NCBI GenBank assembly: GCA_026394395.1
Contig: JAPKYK010000001.1
Location: 159,940 to 223,939 of the forward strand
Source of the DNA: Methanomassiliicoccales archaeon
GTDB taxonomy: Archaea; Thermoplasmatota; Thermoplasmata; Methanomassiliicoccales; UBA472
Direction of reading: 5' to 3'
Length of the DNA: 64,000 nucleotides
Part shown: positions 3,830-30,165 of the stretch, piece after piece
Position numbering within the stretch: position 1 is the stretch's first letter
Layout of the letters: every line of letters begins with the position of its first letter
Position numbers and translations under genes: made by a program
Notes under the pieces: generated by a model
Told to the model about the DNA's origin: nothing
Database searches by the model: none
What the model saw: only the letters and a program-made list of their open reading frames with translations

Positions 3830-3926
3830 TGGGCCCATCCGGATTTGAACCGGAGACCTTCTCCGTTCCGCCCCCTTTTTAGGAGGGGTTGTCAGGGAGA
3901 CGTCATAACCGCTAGACCATGAGCCC
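3830..3926 (-). tRNA. tRNA-Val(GAC) with a 24-base intron
   Basis: On the minus strand the acceptor stem GGGCTCA pairs with TGGGCCC (one G-T), followed by discriminator A. The D arm is GTC...GAC, the anticodon stem TCTCC/GGAGA, and the T arm TCCGG-TTCAAAT-CCGGA. The anticodon loop reads C-T-GAC-A, then an intron between positions 37 and 38 (complement of 3866-3889), then C. The intron folds with CCCCT against AGGGG, as expected for a bulge-helix-bulge site cut by the archaeal splicing endonuclease. The spliced length is 73. No 3' CCA is encoded. A TATA-like GCATATACAT lies upstream near 3950-3960. Confidence 0.93.
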
Positions 3927-18626: not shown

Positions 18627-18651
18627 TCATTTTCTTATTTTTTTATTCTTC
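18627..18651 (+). terminator. T-rich transcription terminator
   Basis: A run dominated by T (TTTTCTTATTTTTTTATTCTT) begins 36 bases after the small-protein stop codon. Archaeal RNA polymerase ends transcripts at such tracts. It also lies at the end of the convergent ppx gene. Confidence 0.6.
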
Positions 18652-20202
18652 TGTCCGGTTGAGCATCACCGTCAGTTCCTTTCCGAACGCCTTCTTGAAG
18701 GTCTTGCGGTCCTCCTCCAGGCGCCACATCTCCAACTGAGGGTCGCCGCTGGCAGTGACGATCAGGCGCACCGAACCCTTGGTCACCTTGCTGAAGCGCA
18801 CGCTCTGCACCAGATTGGAATGCGACCGGTCCAGGCTCTCGGCCATGCGCAGGAGGGTGGACAGGCGTACTACCGCCATCTTATCCGCGTCGTCCAACCC
18901 CCTTAGGTCCACCGAGCGCTCCTTGGGCATGCGCTTGCGGTGGTACTTGGCCAGGTTGGCCATGATCTGCACCTCCCGGCTGGAAAAGCCCAGCAGTTCG
19001 GCGTGATTGATGATGTATTGGGAGTGCAGGTGATGGTCGTTGTACGAGATGAAATCCCCGACGTCGTGCAGGAAGGCGGCGTGGCGCAGCAGCTCCCTCT
19101 CGCCTTTGCCCAGCCCGTGCAGACCTTTCTTGACCGCGCTGTCGTACAGCTCGAGGGCGATCGTGGTCACCCACCGGGCGTGCTCCTCGTCCACCGAGCA
19201 GTTCCGCCCCAGCTGTATGACGCTCCTCTCTCTCACCGACAGCTCGCGGAAGCCCGGGAACTCCTCCAGTCTCCCCAGGTAGTCCATCAGCATGCCGTCC
19301 CGCATGCTGCGTCCGCTGACGGCTATCTCGGTGATCTTCAGCTCGTCCATCACCGTTTCGAGTATCAATGCCCCGGCCACGATGATGTCCGCCCTCTCCG
19401 GGTTGATGCCCGGGACCTTCTGCCGGCCCGCTAGGTCCAAAGGCGCCAATTGCGAGACCAGCTTCTTCAACTGGGTGTGGCGGATCACCCCTGGGTGCAG
19501 GCCATCCTGCTTGGCAAGGATGTCCCCCAGGTTCATGATGGTGCCCGAGCTGCCGAAGGCCAGGCCCACCTTGTTCTGCAAGATCTCCTTCTTCGCCCGG
19601 ACCAGCGAGCTCTTGATGTACTTGCGCATCTTGCTGAGGGTCTCGTCAGAAACCGACCCCTCAGGCTTCTTGACGAACATGGCGGTCAGGCGGATGGCCC
19701 CCACCTTCATGCTCTCTAGGTAGGTGTATTCCCTCTGGTCACCGAGGATCAGCTCGGTGCTGCCCCCGCCGATGTCCACGAAAAGGGCGGTCTTCCGACC
19801 GAGATGGTGTCCGCTGGACACTCCAAGATAGATCAGCCGCGCCTCCTCCAGCCCGGAGATGATCTTCAGCTCCACGCCGGTGGTCTCCTTCATCCGCTCG
19901 ATCAGCTCCATGCGGTTGGAGGCCTCGCGGGTGGCGGAGGTGGCCATGGCCACGAACTCGGTCGCCCCGTAGGTGCGCGAGAGGTCGCAGAAGTTCTTCA
20001 ACACCCTCACCGCTCTCTCTATGGCATTCTCCTTCAGCAGCCCGTCCTGGAACTCTGTCTCCCCCAGCCGCACCATCTCCTTTTGCTCGCTTATGACGGT
20101 GTACGAGCGGTTGAGGTTGATGCGCACCACCAGGAGCCGGACGGAGTTGGTACCAACGTCCAGAAAGGCCACCACCTTTCCCTTGTCCACCTCATTGGCC
20201 AA
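18643..20202 (-). CDS. ppx: Exopolyphosphatase, Ppx/GppA family
   Basis: The 519-residue protein has the two-lobed ASKHA phosphatase (VVAFLDVGTNSVRLLVVRI, ATSATREASNR, FVDIGGGSTELILG, GSSGTIMNLG) and a C-terminal HD-like domain (FLHDVGDF, AKYHRKR, LLRMAESLDRSH). It releases orthophosphate from polyphosphate or cleaves pppGpp. TTG 20202 is preferred, with AGGAGG 7 bases upstream; GTG 20187 is the alternative. It overlaps the CHAD fusion gene by 11 bases and forms a polyphosphate operon with ppk. Confidence 0.92.
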   Translation of the reverse strand: MANEVDKGKVVAFLDVGTNSVRLLVVRINLNRSYTVISEQKEMVRLGETEFQDGLLKENAIERAVRVLKNFCDLSRTYGATEFVAMATSATREASNRMELIERMKETTGVELKIISGLEEARLIYLGVSSGHHLGRKTALFVDIGGGSTELILGDQREYTYLESMKVGAIRLTAMFVKKPEGSVSDETLSKMRKYIKSSLVRAKKEILQNKVGLAFGSSGTIMNLGDILAKQDGLHPGVIRHTQLKKLVSQLAPLDLAGRQKVPGINPERADIIVAGALILETVMDELKITEIAVSGRSMRDGMLMDYLGRLEEFPGFRELSVRERSVIQLGRNCSVDEEHARWVTTIALELYDSAVKKGLHGLGKGERELLRHAAFLHDVGDFISYNDHHLHSQYIINHAELLGFSSREVQIMANLAKYHRKRMPKERSVDLRGLDDADKMAVVRLSTLLRMAESLDRSHSNLVQSVRFSKVTKGSVRLIVTASGDPQLEMWRLEEDRKTFKKAFGKELTVMLNRTEE

Positions 20203-22324
20203 TTCGGACCCTCCTCTTGAACGCCCTTTCGAACTGCCCTTTCTTGCGCCCCACCCATTCCCTCTCCAGTTCGAAGGTCCCCACGCCCTTGAGCTGCAGC
20301 CGGACCTCCTTCCTCCCCACGGCCATGGAGACACCGGCGACCCGGGAATCATGCCCCCGGTCCAATGAGTCGGCCAGCGCCAGCAGCGCGGACATCTTGC
20401 GGACCCGTTTCCGCTCGCCTTCCTTCAGGTCCCTGAACACCCGGTCGGTGTCCCGCGGGGCTCGCGTTCCGTGATAGCGGGCCACGCAGCCTACGATCAT
20501 CTTCTCCCGGCAGTCCAAAGGCAGGTCGGCCTTCATGACCAGGTCCAAGGAGCGCCTCTGATGGCCTTCTCTGCCCTGGCTCCATCCCACGTCATGCACC
20601 AGGGCGGCCAGCTCCAGCAGCTCACGGTCGCCTTCCTTCAGCCGGTGCAGCCCGTGGGTCTGGTCGAAGAGAAGCATGGTCATGGTCCTCACCTGCTCCA
20701 CGTGCACCTGGTCCGGGTGCAGGGACATGGCCCATTCGCCCACCGCGACCGTCCGATCATCCTGATGCCCGTGGGCGATATCCTCAGCCAGGTCGTTCAG
20801 TCCCAACGTCCGCACCTCCTCGGCCGTCCCGCTGGCGTCGTACTCCACCAGATGGTGCTGCAGCTGCAGCTCAGGGAAGGTCAAGGTGGCGTAGGAGGCC
20901 TTGGGCCCGTTCCTGGGTCGGCCCACGCTCCCGGGGTTAACGAACAGGGTGCGGGACACCTCCCTCTCCATGGGTACATGGGAATGGCCGGTGACTATCA
21001 CGTCCGCCTTGACCTCCTGGGCGATGTCCTCGAGGCGCGATTCAGGGGTGCCGGGGAGCAGCTTGTCCTGCTCGTCGTCGGGGGCGGCGTGGGTCATGAA
21101 CAGGGTGCGACCGCAGATGTCCAGGCGCACCTCTTTAGGCAGGGACTCAATCCAATCCCAGCTCCTTTCCTTCATGGCGTCTACCAACGAGCCGAGCTGG
21201 GCGTCCGCGCTCGTCTTCCTCTGTCGGGCCTCGAGCGCATCGCGGTCCATGTTGCCGGAGACGCTCATAACGTCCGCCCCCCGCAGCATGTCTATGGCCA
21301 GGTCCGGCTCTGGCAGGCCCACGGCATCGCCAGCGTGCAATATGGCTGAGACCCCGCGGTCCCGGGCGTGGGCCAGCACCGCTCGCAGCGCCGCTGCGTT
21401 CCCGTGCACGTCGGAGATCAAGGCCACATTGACCGGGCAGACCTCCTCCTGGCCATGCCCCTTCAGCTTCTCCAGCAGGCGATAGAAGAAGCGCTCCTGG
21501 GTCAGGGCGTACCAGGTCTCCATGAGCCGCCCGTGCAGTTCCTTCCGCCGTCCCTCCAGTCGCACCTGTAAGTGGTCCAACGCCCCTTCTACAGCGGGGA
21601 GCTCCTTCCTCAGGAGGGGGATCCGTTGCAGCCAGATGTCGCAATCGTGCAGTTCGCCTACCACGTCCTGCATCTTCTTCAGCTCGCGCAGCTCCTCGTC
21701 CAGCCCGTCATCGTAAGCTTTCCTGAAGGCCTCCAGCGCGTAGCGCAGCCTCTTCGCCGCTATGCGCAGGGCGTGATGTCCCTGCCAGTCGCTGTAGACC
21801 GGGACGGAATGGGCGTGCTCGAAGAGCTCCTCCACGGCCACGGCCGCGTGGGTATAGGCGTAGGGGCGCAGGGCGGCAGGCGGTCCGTTCCAATCCTCCC
21901 CTCCCTCCAGTTCGACCTTCAGTTCCAGCAGCGGGCTGCCATCTGATAGCTGGTCCATGAGGGCGCATATCGCCGGTTGCATTGCGGTCCGCCCCTCCTT
22001 CAGGTGCGCTATCAGGGGCTGGAGGTCCTCGGCCCCCTCCATCCCGCTGAGGAAATCGATCTGCACGTCCAGGTCCCGGGCTTGCCCCAAGGATGTGGTG
22101 ACCTCCTTGGCCGCCTGCCGCCAACGCTTGCCCTTCTTCCCCTTGAAGCAATCTCCGAATATCCTCAGGGCAGAACGCAGGCGCCGGGAGGCCACGCGCA
22201 TGCGGTGTACGTGCTCGATGTCCTCCCCCTGGTGGACCCCCTCGACCTCCTCCAGCAGGGCGTCGAGGCGTTCCCGGGCGGCCTGACGGCCGAACTGGCA
22301 CAGCTCATCCCGTCCCAAGATCAT
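20192..22324 (-). CDS. CHAD - metallophosphoesterase - HD domain fusion
   Basis: Three modules lie in one 710-residue chain. Residues 1-295 are a CHAD domain with conserved basic/His helices (HVHRMRVASRRLRSALRIF, HALRIAAKRLRYALEAF) known to bind polyphosphate. Residues 298-495 are a YfcE/MJ0936-like phosphodiesterase (SDVHGN, GD at 332-333, GNMD, TH at 411-412, GHSH at 446-449). Residues 540-710 are an HD-like domain (LVHDVG, LADSLDRGHDS) related to the C-terminus of the neighbouring Ppx. ATG 22324 overlaps the ppk stop as ATGA. Likely a polyphosphate-bound phosphoesterase; the order of domains is unusual. Confidence 0.88.
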   Translation of the reverse strand: MILGRDELCQFGRQAARERLDALLEEVEGVHQGEDIEHVHRMRVASRRLRSALRIFGDCFKGKKGKRWRQAAKEVTTSLGQARDLDVQIDFLSGMEGAEDLQPLIAHLKEGRTAMQPAICALMDQLSDGSPLLELKVELEGGEDWNGPPAALRPYAYTHAAVAVEELFEHAHSVPVYSDWQGHHALRIAAKRLRYALEAFRKAYDDGLDEELRELKKMQDVVGELHDCDIWLQRIPLLRKELPAVEGALDHLQVRLEGRRKELHGRLMETWYALTQERFFYRLLEKLKGHGQEEVCPVNVALISDVHGNAAALRAVLAHARDRGVSAILHAGDAVGLPEPDLAIDMLRGADVMSVSGNMDRDALEARQRKTSADAQLGSLVDAMKERSWDWIESLPKEVRLDICGRTLFMTHAAPDDEQDKLLPGTPESRLEDIAQEVKADVIVTGHSHVPMEREVSRTLFVNPGSVGRPRNGPKASYATLTFPELQLQHHLVEYDASGTAEEVRTLGLNDLAEDIAHGHQDDRTVAVGEWAMSLHPDQVHVEQVRTMTMLLFDQTHGLHRLKEGDRELLELAALVHDVGWSQGREGHQRRSLDLVMKADLPLDCREKMIVGCVARYHGTRAPRDTDRVFRDLKEGERKRVRKMSALLALADSLDRGHDSRVAGVSMAVGRKEVRLQLKGVGTFELEREWVGRKKGQFERAFKRRVRIGQ

Positions 22325-24456
22325 CCCTCCTTGTGCCAGCATCCGCGGTTCCGGATGAGCCAATCCTGGGAATCGACCTTTTCCTCGTTCTTCCGAGCCT
22401 TGCGCTTGACGTAGGTGCCGTCGGGGAGCATGTCCCGGGATTTCACGTTGTCCCGCAGGTGGATCGGCAATATGACGTCCACCAGCATCCGTTTGTAGCT
22501 CTCGTCCAGCACTGGGAACAGGACCTCCACACGTTTGTTCAGGTTGCGGGGCATGAGGTCCGAGCTTCCCAGGAAGACCTCCTCCTCCCCGCCGTTCCTG
22601 AAGTAGTAGATGCGGGCATGCTCCAGGAACCGGCCCACTATGCTGCTCTGCCGGATGTTCTCGCTCAGCCCCTTCACCCCCGGCCGCAGGGCGCATAGCC
22701 CGCGCACGTTGAGATCGATACGGACCCCGGCGTTCGAGGCCCGGTACAGCGCCTGGACCACCTCCTTGTCCAGCAGTCCATTGAGCTTGAACGCCAGGTA
22801 ACCGTCCCCATGCTCTAGGTGCCGTTGGGCCTCGCGGTCTATCTTAGCGATGATCTCCTGCTTAAGGGTCACCGGGGCCACCAGCAACTTGCGATATCGG
22901 TCCTTGTGGGCGTACCCAGTCAGGTAGTTGAACAGGTCGGCCACGTCCGCGCCGATGTCCGGATCGTTGGTCAGGTATCCGATGTCCCCATAGATCCGCG
23001 CGGTCTGGGCGTTGTAGTTCCCGGAGCTCATGTGACTGTAGCGGACGATATCGTCGCCCTTGCGCTTGACCACCAGGAGGAGCTTGGCGTGGACCTTAAG
23101 ATCCAGTAGTCCGTACACCACGTGCACCCCGGCCTGCTCCAAGGCCCGGGCCCAAACGATGTTGTTCTCCTCGTCGAAGCGGGCCTTGAGCTCCACCACC
23201 GCGGCCACGGCCTTACCGTTCTCCCTCGCTTCCATCAGGGCATCGATGATGGGAGAATGCTTGTCGATGCGGTATAGGGTTATCTTGATGGCCAGCACCT
23301 GGGGGTCGTGGGCCGCCTGCTTGAGGAAGGTGACCAGGGGCACGAAGCTGTCATAGGGATGGTAGAACAGCCGGTCCCGATGGTCCACGGCGGTCATGAG
23401 GTCCTTCTCCGGGACCAGCTCCGGCGGCACGTAAGGAAGGAAGGGGTTATCTTTCAGATCGGGACGGTTTATGGCCATCAGGTCCCAGAAGGTGGTAAGG
23501 GCCAACGGAGCGTGCGAACGAAAGACCATCAGAGAATGCAGGCCAAGCTTGTTGGTGAACAGCTCGACCATCTTCTCTGGCATGTCATTGTCCACCTCCA
23601 GGCGGGTGGGGGAGCCGATCCTTCTGGTCTCCACGCTCTCCTCGATGGCCGTGAGCAGGTCCTCAGCCTCGTCCGTGGTTATCTCGATGTCCGCGTCCCG
23701 GGTGATGCGGAAGGTGTGCGCCTCCTTGATGCTCATCCCCGGGAACAACAGGTCCAGGTTGTCCGCCACCAGGTCCTCCAGTAGGACGAAGTCCTGTACC
23801 CGTCCCGGACCATTCTCCGGCAAGGGAACGAAGCGGGGGAAGAGGTCCAAGGGGACCTTGACCCTGGCGTAGCGCTCGCCCCTCTGCGGGTGCCGGACCA
23901 CCACGGCCAGGTTTATGCTCAGGTTGGAGATGAACGGAAAAGGTTGGTTGAAGTCCAGGGCCAGTGGCGTCAGCGCCGGGAAGATCATGCGCTCGAAGAA
24001 GTCCCGCAGCCCCTCCCGACGGCCCCGGTCCAGGTCCCCTATGCGGTGCACCAGTATGCCCTGGGCCTTCAGCTTGGGCAGAAGGTCGTCGTACCAGCAG
24101 GTGCCATGTGCCTCTAACAGAGGAAGGAGCTCGCGGTTGATGGCCTCCATCTGCTCGAGAGGCGTCAGGCCGTCCGGCGGGAATTCCAGCGCCCCCTTTT
24201 TGAGCTGCCTCTTGAGCCCTGACACGCGCACCATGAAGAACTCGTCCAGGTTGCTGCCGCAGATGGCCAGGAACTTGACCCTCTCCAGAAGGGGGTGCCG
24301 CTCATCCAAAGCCTCCTCGAGTATACGGCGATGGAACCCGATCCAGCTGATCTCCCGGTTCAGGAAAGAGGAGGATGATTCCAGCTTTGAGGCGGGCGCT
24401 TCAGCCTTCGTCACCGGCTTGTTCTTCTTCTTATCCTTGTTCTTGCGAGAGGCCAT
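22321..24456 (-). CDS. ppk1: Polyphosphate kinase 1
   Basis: PPK1 reversibly makes polyphosphate from ATP. The 711 residues hold the N-terminal helix bundle (FLNREISWIGFHRRILEEA), a head domain, and two PLD-like catalytic domains. The autophosphorylated His is in LDLKVHAKLLLV, and the second catalytic His is in LEHARIYYFRNGG. LYRIDKHSPIIDAL and HMSSGNYN are further signatures. A Lys-rich start (MASRKNKDKKKNK) is unusual and may be a flexible tail. GTATATATG at 24484-24492 is its TATA box. It leads the operon ppk1 - CHAD fusion - ppx. Confidence 0.96.
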   Translation of the reverse strand: MASRKNKDKKKNKPVTKAEAPASKLESSSSFLNREISWIGFHRRILEEALDERHPLLERVKFLAICGSNLDEFFMVRVSGLKRQLKKGALEFPPDGLTPLEQMEAINRELLPLLEAHGTCWYDDLLPKLKAQGILVHRIGDLDRGRREGLRDFFERMIFPALTPLALDFNQPFPFISNLSINLAVVVRHPQRGERYARVKVPLDLFPRFVPLPENGPGRVQDFVLLEDLVADNLDLLFPGMSIKEAHTFRITRDADIEITTDEAEDLLTAIEESVETRRIGSPTRLEVDNDMPEKMVELFTNKLGLHSLMVFRSHAPLALTTFWDLMAINRPDLKDNPFLPYVPPELVPEKDLMTAVDHRDRLFYHPYDSFVPLVTFLKQAAHDPQVLAIKITLYRIDKHSPIIDALMEARENGKAVAAVVELKARFDEENNIVWARALEQAGVHVVYGLLDLKVHAKLLLVVKRKGDDIVRYSHMSSGNYNAQTARIYGDIGYLTNDPDIGADVADLFNYLTGYAHKDRYRKLLVAPVTLKQEIIAKIDREAQRHLEHGDGYLAFKLNGLLDKEVVQALYRASNAGVRIDLNVRGLCALRPGVKGLSENIRQSSIVGRFLEHARIYYFRNGGEEEVFLGSSDLMPRNLNKRVEVLFPVLDESYKRMLVDVILPIHLRDNVKSRDMLPDGTYVKRKARKNEEKVDSQDWLIRNRGCWHKEG

Positions 24457-24570
24457 TTCTATCCACCACACATCTGACCTGCAGTATATATGAGATTACT
24501 GACCAGTCAATAATTCACTCATTATCAAAATGTAAATCGGTGCTGTTCAGTTCTTATAGGCTGGAGCAGC

Positions 24571-25377
24571 ATGCTGGTGCCCATGGACGCCCTGATCCGC
24601 CCCGGGGACGTGGACACCGACCGCTTGGACCGGACCAGACGCATCGACTGGGTCGACATCGGGAGGGTGCAGGGATCGAGGGTGCTGGTGGTCGGCGCCG
24701 GAGCCCTGGGCAACGAGGCGGTCAAGGACCTGGTGCTCTTCGGCTTCCAGCACGTGGACGTGCTGGACATGGACCGCGTGGTCCGCTCCAACCTGAACCG
24801 CTGCGTTCTATTTCGCGAGGGGGACCAGTCCACCGGAAGGGGCAAGTCCGATCTGGTGGCGGAGAGGGCCAGGGAGCTCGATCCCTCGTCCGAGGTCAGA
24901 CCTTTGTTCGGGACGGTGCAATCTCTGGGGCCGAAGGAGATGGCAGCCTACGACGTGATCCTCGGGTGCTTGGACAACGTGGCCGCCCGTCTGCACCTCA
25001 ACGCCAATTCCTACCACGCCGGCGTCCCTTACATCGACGGAGGGACGGACGGCTTCCGGGGCCGAGTGCAGGTGGTGGTCCCCCCATCGACCCCCTGCCT
25101 GCAATGCTCCATGAATCGCAGCCACTACAAGGTGATGGAACGGAGGTTCAGCTGCACCGGACAGGACACGGTGTTCTACCAGCCCAAGATGGCAGCGGAG
25201 ATAACCACCACCAGCGTCATCGCCGCCATGCAGGTCCGGGAGGCGGTCAAGTTGCTCTCCGGAAAGGACGTGGTCTGTAACACGGTCTATTACGATGGAC
25301 TGACAGGGAACTGCGAGACCCTCACCTTGGACCGGGACCCCGAATGCCCGGTCCATCTGACCGCGCCATTATCATAA
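24571..25377 (+). CDS. E1-like ubiquitin-activating enzyme (ThiF/UBA family)
   Basis: The 268-residue adenylation-domain protein has the nucleotide loop VLVVGAGALGNEAVKDL (residues 38-54), then DMDRVVRSNLNRCVLF (67-81) as in E1 D-x-D-x-V-x-x-S-N-L-N-R, GCLDNVAAR and PYIDGGTDGFRG. C176-x2-C179 with C259 and H262 (DPECPVH) form a likely zinc site. C195 in RRFSCTGQD sits where UBA3-type E1s have their catalytic Cys-Thr. It should adenylate the C-terminus of the ubiquitin-like protein encoded next and pass it as a thioester to the E2. It lacks the UFD and second catalytic half-domain of eukaryotic E1s. GGAG precedes ATG 24571. Confidence 0.9.
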   Translation: MLVPMDALIRPGDVDTDRLDRTRRIDWVDIGRVQGSRVLVVGAGALGNEAVKDLVLFGFQHVDVLDMDRVVRSNLNRCVLFREGDQSTGRGKSDLVAERARELDPSSEVRPLFGTVQSLGPKEMAAYDVILGCLDNVAARLHLNANSYHAGVPYIDGGTDGFRGRVQVVVPPSTPCLQCSMNRSHYKVMERRFSCTGQDTVFYQPKMAAEITTTSVIAAMQVREAVKLLSGKDVVCNTVYYDGLTGNCETLTLDRDPECPVHLTAPLS

Positions 25378-25394
25378 TGTTGATTCTAATGGAA

Positions 25395-25406
25395 AGGATT
25401 ATACAT
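25395..25406 (+). promoter_or_regulatory. TATA-like box before the ubiquitin-like gene
   Basis: AGGATTATACAT lies about 30-40 bases before ATG 25436, within the 58-base gap after the E1-like gene. It would give the modifier, E2 and JAMM genes a transcript of their own, so the modifier could exceed E1 in amount. Confidence 0.45.
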
Positions 25407-25435
25407 GATTCCCAAAGATTGACCAGCGGATTACA

Positions 25436-25681
25436 ATGGTGGTAAGAGTAAGGGTAAGGAACGCGGAGACCGGGGCTACGGTGGACATGGAACTGGAGAC
25501 GGAGAACACCGTGGAAGAGATCATCGAAGGCGTTTCGGCATTCTGGGAGAAGGATCCCGGCGCCTACGTCGTCCGCAAGGGACGCCGGCTTCTTCGGGGG
25601 CAGCAGAAGGTCCAGGACCTGGACCTGCAGTCCAACGAGGAGCTGGAGCTGATCCCGGACCCCGAAGGCGGGAACAAATGA
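25436..25681 (+). CDS. Ubiquitin-like modifier protein
   Basis: The 81-residue beta-grasp protein follows the ubiquitin layout: two strands (MVVRVRVRNAETGATVDMEL), a helix (TVEEIIEGVSAFWEK), then YVVRKGRRLL and DLDLQSNEELELIPDPEGG. The Gly-Gly is at residues 78-79, followed by only Asn-Lys, so removal of two residues would expose the conjugation end. Context is decisive: it lies between E1-like and E2-like genes and overlaps the E2 start by 4 bases. Identity with ubiquitin is low, so it is a separate Ubl branch rather than ubiquitin itself. Lys residues at 39, 48, 58 and 81 could allow chains. Confidence 0.88.
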   Translation: MVVRVRVRNAETGATVDMELETENTVEEIIEGVSAFWEKDPGAYVVRKGRRLLRGQQKVQDLDLQSNEELELIPDPEGGNK

Positions 25682-26184
25682 CCCTGCCCCTCGAGATACT
25701 GTTCATAAGGATGCGCAACGAACTGGAGGCCTGCCAAAGCTTCCTCCCGACCGACTTCGACCTGGGCGAGGAGCACCTGACCTCCTTCCCGCTGAAGGTG
25801 GACATAACCCTGGAGCGCACCCCCGGTCCCATCATGGAGAACGGGAAGCTCGCCTACCGATATCATCACCAACTGCAGCTGATCATCGGCCGAGAATATC
25901 CTTTCGAGAAACCGCTGGTCATCTGGAAGACCCCCATATTTCATCCCAACATCATGATGCCCGAGGACGGCGGCCACGTCTGCATCAAGCTGTTGTCGGA
26001 CTGGTCCTTCAATTCTACGTTGTCCACGTTCATCAAGGGCCTGGAGTCCCTGCTCATCTCTCCTAACGGGGGCAGCCCGTTCGGCACTGACACCTGCACG
26101 GCCGCCGCCCAATATTTCAACACGAGCCCGAAACGGGCGCTGCCCATCGTGATTCCGACCTCCCCCAAGGTGGTGCGCCGTTGA
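25678..26184 (+). CDS. E2-like ubiquitin-conjugating enzyme
   Basis: The 168-residue UBC-fold protein keeps the classical E2 core: YPFEKPLVIWKTPIFHPNI with the HPN motif at 89-91, GGHVCIKLL with the active-site Cys at 102, a Trp in LSDWS, then TLSTFIKGLESLLISPNGGSPF, matching the helix and PN-x-x-x-P stretch after the Cys in eukaryotic E2s. It would take the modifier from the E1 as a thioester and pass it to a target amine. The region after 140 (TAAAQYFNTSPKRALPIV) is specific to this protein. It is co-translated with its neighbours. Confidence 0.92.
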   Translation: MTLPLEILFIRMRNELEACQSFLPTDFDLGEEHLTSFPLKVDITLERTPGPIMENGKLAYRYHHQLQLIIGREYPFEKPLVIWKTPIFHPNIMMPEDGGHVCIKLLSDWSFNSTLSTFIKGLESLLISPNGGSPFGTDTCTAAAQYFNTSPKRALPIVIPTSPKVVRR

Positions 26185-26216
26185 AGCGTGCGCCGGTCAT
26201 CCTCGGAGGGAAGGAC

Positions 26217-26813
26217 ATGGAGGTGGAGGAGATGCCCCCGCCCTCGTCCGAGCGAACCCTGCCTCACAAGTGGCTGCCCGAGGAGGGCCGTCCCCTATAT
26301 TCAGAAAAAGAGGGGGCGGAGATGTTCCTGTTCAAGACGGCGGAGGAGAAGGTGCGCAACCACGCCCTCAGCAAGGTCAAGGAAGGCTTGGAGGTGATGG
26401 GCTTCCTTTTGGGGGAGGTGTTCACCTTCGAAGGCCGGGAGTACACCGTGGTCCGGGACGTGGCCACCACCGACCTGGAGGCCACCTCGGTCAGCGTAAG
26501 GTTCGACCCGGAGGGGTTCGAGACCCTCTTCGCCTCGCTGGAATGCGCCCGCTTCCGCTACGTGCTGGTGGGCTGGTACCATTCCCATCCCGGTCACAGA
26601 TGCTTCCTCTCCTCGACGGACATCGCCACCCAAAGTGGGATGTTCGACCGGCCTTACCACACCGCGTTGGTCGTTGACCCCATACACCGGGAGATGGACG
26701 CGTTCTGCCTGAAAAAAGGAGAGGTGCGGCGACGCAAGTTCATGGTCTACTGGGACGAGTTCCAGAATCCCTATTACGGCGAGAGCGTCAGGTCCCGTAA
26801 GCTAAGCGATTAG
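26217..26813 (+). CDS. JAMM/MPN+ isopeptidase of the ubiquitin-like operon
   Basis: The 198-residue zinc peptidase has a complete JAMM motif: Glu in LEVMGFLLGE, then GWYHSHPGHRCFLSSTDIATQ giving H-x-H-x7-S-x2-D. It is Rpn11/AMSH-like in core layout, with an N-terminal extension (FLFKTAEEKVRNHALSKVKE). It could remove Asn-Lys from the modifier precursor and cut it from targets. ATG 26217 has GGAGGG six bases upstream; TTG 26181, overlapping the E2 stop as TTGA, would add 12 residues. It ends the operon one base short of the convergent hexuloisomerase gene. Confidence 0.92.
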   Translation: MEVEEMPPPSSERTLPHKWLPEEGRPLYSEKEGAEMFLFKTAEEKVRNHALSKVKEGLEVMGFLLGEVFTFEGREYTVVRDVATTDLEATSVSVRFDPEGFETLFASLECARFRYVLVGWYHSHPGHRCFLSSTDIATQSGMFDRPYHTALVVDPIHREMDAFCLKKGEVRRRKFMVYWDEFQNPYYGESVRSRKLSD

Positions 26814-30089: not shown

Positions 30090-30165
30090 GGGCCCGTGGG
30101 GTAGCTTGGAATCCTTCCTGCTTGGGGTGCAGGTGACTCCGATTCAAATTCGGACGGGCCCACCA
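30090..30165 (+). tRNA. tRNA-Pro(GGG), CCA encoded
   Basis: Acceptor GGGCCCG pairs with CGGGCCC, then discriminator A and an encoded CCA. The anticodon arm is CCTGC-TTGGGGT-GCAGG with anticodon GGG. The T arm is TCCGA-TTCAAAT-TCGGA, and the D loop keeps A14, GG and A21. There is no intron. The D stem is weak, with a U-U mismatch. T-rich TATTTCTTTTAATT after it can end the transcript. Confidence 0.94.

Follow-up and report, generated by a model that had tools for sequence, protein, structure and literature searches.

An operon of four genes, which encode an E1-like adenylating enzyme, a ubiquitin-fold modifier, a ubiquitin-conjugating enzyme (E2) and a JAMM metallopeptidase, occupies positions 24571-26813 of a 64,000-nucleotide stretch from the genome of a Methanomassiliicoccales archaeon (G000:C1:159940-223939; this whole stretch is called the window). 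Judged from their sequences, the four products probably conjugate the modifier to other proteins and also deconjugate it; the E3 ligase is most likely a RING protein whose gene lies beside those of the proteasome. A wider proposal is evenly poised, namely that Methanomassiliicoccales and related Thermoplasmata possess a complete ubiquitin-proteasome-type pathway with a RING E3 that is often membrane-anchored. Under this proposal the pathway would have been dismantled about six times within the order, with E2 and RING lost together and a fossil modifier lacking Gly-Gly sometimes left behind. The features of the operon are given below in window positions, with the number of distinct homologues that conserve each motif.

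24571..25377, + strand: E1-like adenylating enzyme, 268 amino acids (aa); ThiF 1.1e-47 (Pfam, over the curated cut-off)
25153..25155, + strand: candidate catalytic Cys195 of E1, in RRFSCTG; 64/64
25436..25681, + strand: ubiquitin-fold modifier, 81 aa; AlphaFold2 predicted local distance difference test (pLDDT) 89.6; Foldseek matches to ubiquitin/ISG15/Hub1
25667..25672, + strand: Gly78-Gly79, predicted mature C terminus of the modifier; Gly-Gly in 72/72 distinct modifiers beside an E2 with HPN and Cys
25673..25678, + strand: Asn-Lys tail, predicted to be trimmed by JAMM; 0 to 6 variable residues after Gly-Gly in homologues
25678..26184, + strand: E2 (UBC family), 168 aa; UQ_con 2e-13
25942..25950, + strand: E2 HPN motif, residues 89-91; invariant, 65/65
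25981..25983, + strand: E2 active-site Cys102; invariant, 65/65
26181..26813, + strand: JAMM metallopeptidase, Rpn11-like, 210 aa; JAB 1.1e-12; the TTG start overlaps the E2 stop
26580..26588, + strand: JAMM H134-S135-H136, zinc ligands (with E71 and D147); 64/64

The four-gene operon and its remnants

An initial annotation, made from the sequence alone, had described these four genes, and all four open reading frames (ORFs) were confirmed at the stated coordinates on the + strand. The genes are co-directional, with an overlap of the modifier stop with the E2 start, a second overlap of the E2 stop with the JAMM start, and a gap of 58 bases between E1 and the modifier. A survey of genomic context in relatives showed E1, modifier, E2 and JAMM in this order and on one strand around 60 of the 65 distinct E2 ORFs examined; because the order recurs, the operon is not a chance arrangement, and its description as a single operon of a Thermoplasmatota archaeon is borne out. 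Among the five exceptions, E1 follows JAMM in L066, JAMM is missing from L013, and no E1 was detected on the available stretch of L042, L071 and L079. In several families the operon is accompanied by SIS and/or AP-endonuclease genes and by L18e/L13/S9 genes.

The E1 consists of a single ThiF/MoeB-type domain (ThiF over residues 32-261); a separate catalytic-cysteine domain and a UFD are both lacking, so recruitment of E2 must differ from that in canonical E1s. Its best relative in the PDB is the SUMO E1 UBA2 (3.2e-27), followed by NEDD8 E1 and MoeB, and its NCBIfam matches (ThiF, MoeB and UbaA) all lie far below cut-off. Cys195 comes after a CxxC motif (176/179), and a CxxH motif is present at 259/262; both motifs are invariant over the 64 distinct homologues, except C176 and C179 (63/64). 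Residue conservation was counted over 64 distinct homologues for E1 and JAMM and 65 for E2, with L060 and L061 omitted as carrying another kind of E2.

By sequence the modifier is marginal, its matches to YukD (0.014) and ubiquitin (0.036) being under the Pfam cut-off. The predicted structure matches ubiquitin, ISG15, NEDD8, SUMO and Hub1 (best Foldseek E 2.1e-7, TM score about 0.8), which, with the Gly-Gly-Asn-Lys end present in the sequence, upholds the earlier description of a beta-grasp modifier. In the first set, each of the 63 distinct modifiers conserves a C-terminal PDPEGG followed by 0 to 6 variable residues. Over 72 modifiers the tail after Gly-Gly is 0 residues in 29, 1 in 27, 2 in 9, 5 in 4 and 6 in 3.

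Profile searches for the UBC and ThiF families, proposed with the initial annotation, placed the E2 in UQ_con and the E1 in ThiF, both over curated cut-offs. The E2 scored 50.6 bits against PF00179 (cut-off 27) and matched E2s in the PDB at 1.4e-9 as a single sequence and 2.4e-13 as a profile; with the invariance of HPN and Cys102, its assignment as an E2 carrying both is sustained. The closest PDB relatives of the JAMM are Rpn11 (1.2e-12), CSN5 (6.4e-12) and the Caldiarchaeum Rpn11, CsRpn11 (7.7e-10). Its full ligand set of E71, H134-S-H136, S144 and D147 is invariant over the distinct homologues, in agreement with the prediction that all metal ligands are present. In three loci, L223, L224 and L251 (genomes G036, G027 and G262), a JAMM without HxH stands beside E2, and the modifier stops exactly at Gly-Gly in each. 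A requirement of the tail for an active JAMM was considered and is not claimed, since a tail of 0, seen in 3/3 of these genomes, is also found in 26 of the other 69, and the three belong to one genus.

Parts of the operon persist in genomes without E2. Beside the same SIS gene, a modifier without E1 or E2 is found in G035, G044, G052, G056, G060 and G183, and none of these ends in Gly-Gly. The motif is absent from 5/5 E2-less modifiers that pass the threshold, and from a weaker sixth, that of G044, which passes only at 3.6e-6 and stands outside the 5/5 count. In family f11, of whose eight genomes the loci L230 and L237 were examined, an E2-like domain without Cys is fused to the modifier, which again lacks Gly-Gly; no E1 or JAMM was detected on the available stretch of either locus. 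Gly-Gly thus accompanies a catalytic E2, and this is an argument for conjugation through Gly-Gly as the selected function. In two further genomes, again at the SIS gene, an E1 without the catalytic-Cys segment adjoins a JAMM without HxH, and neither E2 nor modifier is present:

L215:6544-7662 (G058): degenerate E1/JAMM region
L219:4308-5398 (G265): degenerate E1/JAMM region

These degenerate genes may point to a second, non-enzymatic use of the pair. No operon gene was recognised beside the SIS gene in G026, G042, G053 and G038, the contig of G038 ending ~870 bases past SIS.

A RING protein beside the proteasome genes

The initial annotation found no RING protein in the window and considered the system possibly without an E3. 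The absence from the window stands, as a search of the genome with the RING family PF13639 gave one match (E 1.2e-4), at C3:391585-391698, elsewhere in the genome. The lack of an E3 is probably wrong, given that the presence of the RING protein tracks that of E2 in the order. The protein of the matching ORF (G000:C3:391243-392094, L087:7244-8095) carries a hydrophobic segment at its N terminus together with a RING-like domain and zinc ribbons. Its gene is located 5' of ftsZ, Pop5, psmA, SBDS, Rrp4 and Rrp41 in a proteasome/exosome cluster, and this neighbourhood recurs around orthologues from further families of the order, with ftsZ present or absent. Counting duplicates, 22 of 36 rows have a hydrophobic 19-mer above 1.6 upstream of the RING domain. 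When a profile of 27 RING domains was compared with solved structures, RNF4 (4.6e-7), RNF165 (2.2e-6) and Arkadia (4.9e-6) ranked best, and the predicted structure is nearest the RINGs of RNF125, TRIM21, Ring1B and RNF165 (best E 3.0e-3, probability 0.99).

In a 300-genome sample of the class, every one of the 42 E2-bearing members of the order matched the RING profile, and 20 of the 21 listed members without E2 did not; the latter count covers listed members only and includes G242, in which the start of the contig truncates the RING site. Fisher's test for this co-occurrence gave p = 1.6e-15, uncorrected for kinship. The site between HdrA and FtsZ or Pop5, where the RING gene is expected from its neighbours, held no RING match in 12/12 E2-less genomes with the site on the contig. 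The adjoining ftsZ does not track E2, being missing from 11/30 loci of genomes with E2 and kept in 3/12 of those without (one a partial match). Because relatives without E2 almost always lack the RING protein too, the protein encoded beside the proteasome genes is likely the missing E3 ligase. A separate set of 61 genomes, searched with a single sequence, showed the RING part in 48 of 50 genomes with E2. In the class sample, 55/55 genomes with E2 outside the order matched the RING profile.

A tree was built from four concatenated proteins of 47 genomes, 44 of which were scored; L096 and L098 were left out for short markers and G242 was dropped. On this tree E2 and RING each undergo six changes of state, and the two agree in all 44 scored genomes. 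Supported branches provide 4 independent contrasts between E2 and RING, all in the same direction. Two genomes with a RING match and no E2 were rejected as counter-examples. In G047 the gene adjoining the operon stops 5 bases from the contig end (29111 of 29116), and in G293 the operon-neighbour gene was itself undetected. The main tree test was performed without G047 and G293, and a second run with both gave 4 same-direction and 2 no-change pairs.

Mechanism and alternative explanations

A mechanism can be proposed in which JAMM would trim the tail of the modifier and expose Gly-Gly. The compact E1 would then adenylate the modifier and carry it on Cys195, from which it would be handed to Cys102 of E2. 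The RING protein, with its N-terminal hydrophobic segment in many genomes, would dock the charged E2 and direct transfer to a lysine, and JAMM would also reverse the conjugate. The term 'full modifier cascade' used in the initial annotation would be apt for such a system. The Rpn11-like JAMM and the position of the RING gene are the two features that suggest delivery of the tagged proteins to the proteasome.

Several observations weigh against a cascade that ends in this RING protein. The PF13639 match lies under the Pfam cut-off, PHD fingers (Pygopus and ubi-d4) appear lower among the matches of the RING profile, and no Foldseek match of the RING model reached E 0.001. The zinc ligands are invariant at seven of eight positions over 27 rows, and the eighth is replaced in 5/27. 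UbcH5-type E2s contact the RING through a WSPA loop; the E2 described here carries WSFN at that position, so docking of a RING would differ. A JAMM without HxH occurs in three genomes that retain E2 (G027, G036 and G262). The four contrasts give a sign test p of 0.125, which is the floor for four pairs, and the identity of the states on the tree is partly due to selection, because members with E2 were chosen for a known RING locus. In the single-sequence search, two genomes with E2, G002 (82% complete) and G037 (73%), gave zinc-ribbon matches only, with the RING part unmatched; both are absent from the E2-containing rows of the class sample and from the tree. Conversely, G115 retains a syntenic RING with E2 undetected. 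Outside the order, 65 E2-less genomes also match the RING profile, many through a protein of ~1500 aa, and specificity of the RING for E2 across the class was therefore rejected. Loss of Gly-Gly was seen in two lineages only, because five of the six orphan modifiers come from genus g21.

One alternative is an operon that conjugates independently of an E3, with the RING protein having another role (e.g. zinc-dependent membrane scaffolding) and merely having been lost in the same reduced lineages. This explanation, which is unlikely but carries real weight, gains from the absence of RING from the operon, from the sub-threshold Pfam match, from the small number of well-supported contrasts and from the mismatched genomes G002, G037 and G115. 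What tells against it is that all four supported contrasts change the same way, that the RING is unmatched at an otherwise intact site in each of the twelve genomes and the neighbouring ftsZ does not track E2, and that the profile and model resemble RINGs that bind E2s.

Much less probable is a sulfur-carrier pair of the ThiS/MoaD/Urm1 type, formed by the modifier and E1, with the E2-like protein as a non-catalytic accessory. The single-domain, MoeB/ThiF-like E1 and its ThiF, MoeB and UbaA matches in NCBIfam, far below cut-off as they are, are what would be expected of it, but the HPN motif and Cys of E2 do not vary in any of the 65 homologues and Gly-Gly is gone where E2 is gone. The closest solved E1 is moreover that of SUMO, and the genome encodes another ThiF with a ThiS-like protein (below cut-off) elsewhere. 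The least probable of the explanations, that the operon serves anti-phage defence in the manner of Bil/Bub or CBASS, draws on PADLOC, in which E1-E2 models match the E1 (2.9e-14) and BilD is matched weakly (4.6e-4); the JAB models reach only 1.3e-3, however, and no model matches the modifier or E2. The stable housekeeping neighbourhood of SIS, AP-endonuclease and L18e/L13/S9 genes is also unlike that of mobile defence genes. Attachment and removal of the modifier, with the RING protein as E3, is thus retained as the preferred reading.

Related systems, distribution and neighbouring genes

The SAMP/Urm1-UbaA systems of archaea combine a ThiF-type E1 with a beta-grasp modifier ending in Gly-Gly and lack E2. 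The present operon shares the first two components and differs in having an E2, which places it outside the SAMP systems. A candidate SAMP/Urm1-type pair exists in the same genome apart from the operon, comprising a ThiS-like protein that ends in Gly-Gly (L090:3368-3577, below the Pfam cut-off) and a second ThiF (L089:4076-4942). Among eukaryotic proteins, the SUMO and NEDD8 E1s, UBC E2s and Rpn11 are the closest solved relatives of the E1, E2 and JAMM; the archaeal system differs in its E1 of 268 aa with one ThiF domain and in the WSFN loop of its E2.

The operon of Caldiarchaeum subterraneum and Asgard archaea shares a ubiquitin-fold modifier with an extension after Gly-Gly, an E1, an E2 with HPN and Cys, an Rpn11-like JAMM, a RING protein and gene clustering (PMC5654768, PMC6043591). 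In Caldiarchaeum the RING gene is inside the operon and JAMM is adjacent in the opposite direction (PMC5654768), whereas here JAMM is co-directional and RING lies in the proteasome/exosome cluster. The Caldiarchaeum E1 is described with a distinct catalytic-cysteine domain (PMC11354881), in contrast to the single MoeB-like domain of the present E1. Measured against the Caldiarchaeum/Asgard type, the Rpn11-like JAMM is therefore present, and a RING in the operon and a catalytic-cysteine domain in E1 are missing. The Caldiarchaeum modifier precursor is reported to be cleaved, and the E1 to refuse it in uncleaved form (PMC5654768).

Prokaryotic operons of ubiquitin, E1 and E2 are known, to which E3-like RING proteins are added in Caldiarchaeum and Asgard archaea (PMC6043591). 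The same source describes operons of ubiquitin, E1, E2 and JAMM without E3, identical in gene content to the present one, with a 'JAMM-3' group closer to Rpn11; its section on the JAMM map describes neither an unlinked RING nor a joint loss. The present operon may belong among these, and both 'Cluster III' of PMC5654768 and the organisms of PMC6043591, which its section on the JAMM map does not name, may include this group. The new element would be a RING that is unlinked to the operon and lost together with E2, in a system otherwise expected to work like the Caldiarchaeum/Asgard cascade. Bacterial Bil/Bub operons share E1, E2 and a JAB-type peptidase with the present operon. The same holds for CBASS Cap2/Cap3, where Cap2 combines E1 and E2 in one protein that conjugates cGAS (PMC10097602). 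The weak PADLOC matches to BilD and JAB, with none for the modifier or E2, place the operon outside Bil/Bub. The passages of PMC11188069 on Thermoplasmata concern ESCRT, and the titles and abstracts listed by searches of an open-access library showed no E2 system for Methanomassiliicoccales or Thermoplasmata.

E2-based systems do extend past the archaeal groups named in the initial annotation, as it had expected. PF00179 matched 50 of 61 genomes (60 relatives and the source genome, which has a single match) and 98 of 300 in the class, compared with 0/14 control genomes. The profile of the E2 itself matched 97 of the 300, 42 within the order and 55 outside; counted among them are the eight f11 genomes and also G084, which has a different type of E2. 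The nearest records in the species collection are Methanomassiliicoccales (38 loci, best 87% identity over E2), and automated public annotation already labels the family 'ubiquitin-conjugating enzyme E2', including that of Methanomassiliicoccus luminyensis. If the proposed reading is true, a large group of archaea beyond Asgard and Caldiarchaeum has long retained E2-RING conjugation, and the repeated losses of this system serve as natural knockouts that show the dependence among its parts. Methanomassiliicoccus luminyensis is in culture and carries the E2, so the role of ubiquitin-like tagging in an archaeon would become testable in living cells.

Variant arrangements were also observed within the class. 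The loci L060 and L061 (G074 and G084), from large single-contig genomes, encode a different E2, with much higher scores against PF00179 (84 and 78 bits). A JAMM is nearby in both, and L061 also has an E1-like gene. In L239 (G179, family f32) the operon is rearranged; a long ORF whose N terminus carries zinc-ribbon-like motifs ends in the modifier, ~430 residues of coiled-coil-like sequence (by eye) come after JAMM, and the E1 gene is last.

Upstream of the operon, at 18643-24471 on the - strand of the window, three adjacent genes resemble polyphosphate metabolism by eye (PPK-like, CHAD-like and Ppx/GppA-like). Among 39 loci, which include short ones, 8 have relatives of the PPK-like and CHAD-like genes close to the operon. 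Two transfer RNAs (tRNAs) were each reported by one program: Rfam gave a tRNA at 3830-3926 (- strand) that ARAGORN missed, and ARAGORN gave a tRNA-Pro(GGG) at 30090-30165 (+ strand) that Rfam missed.

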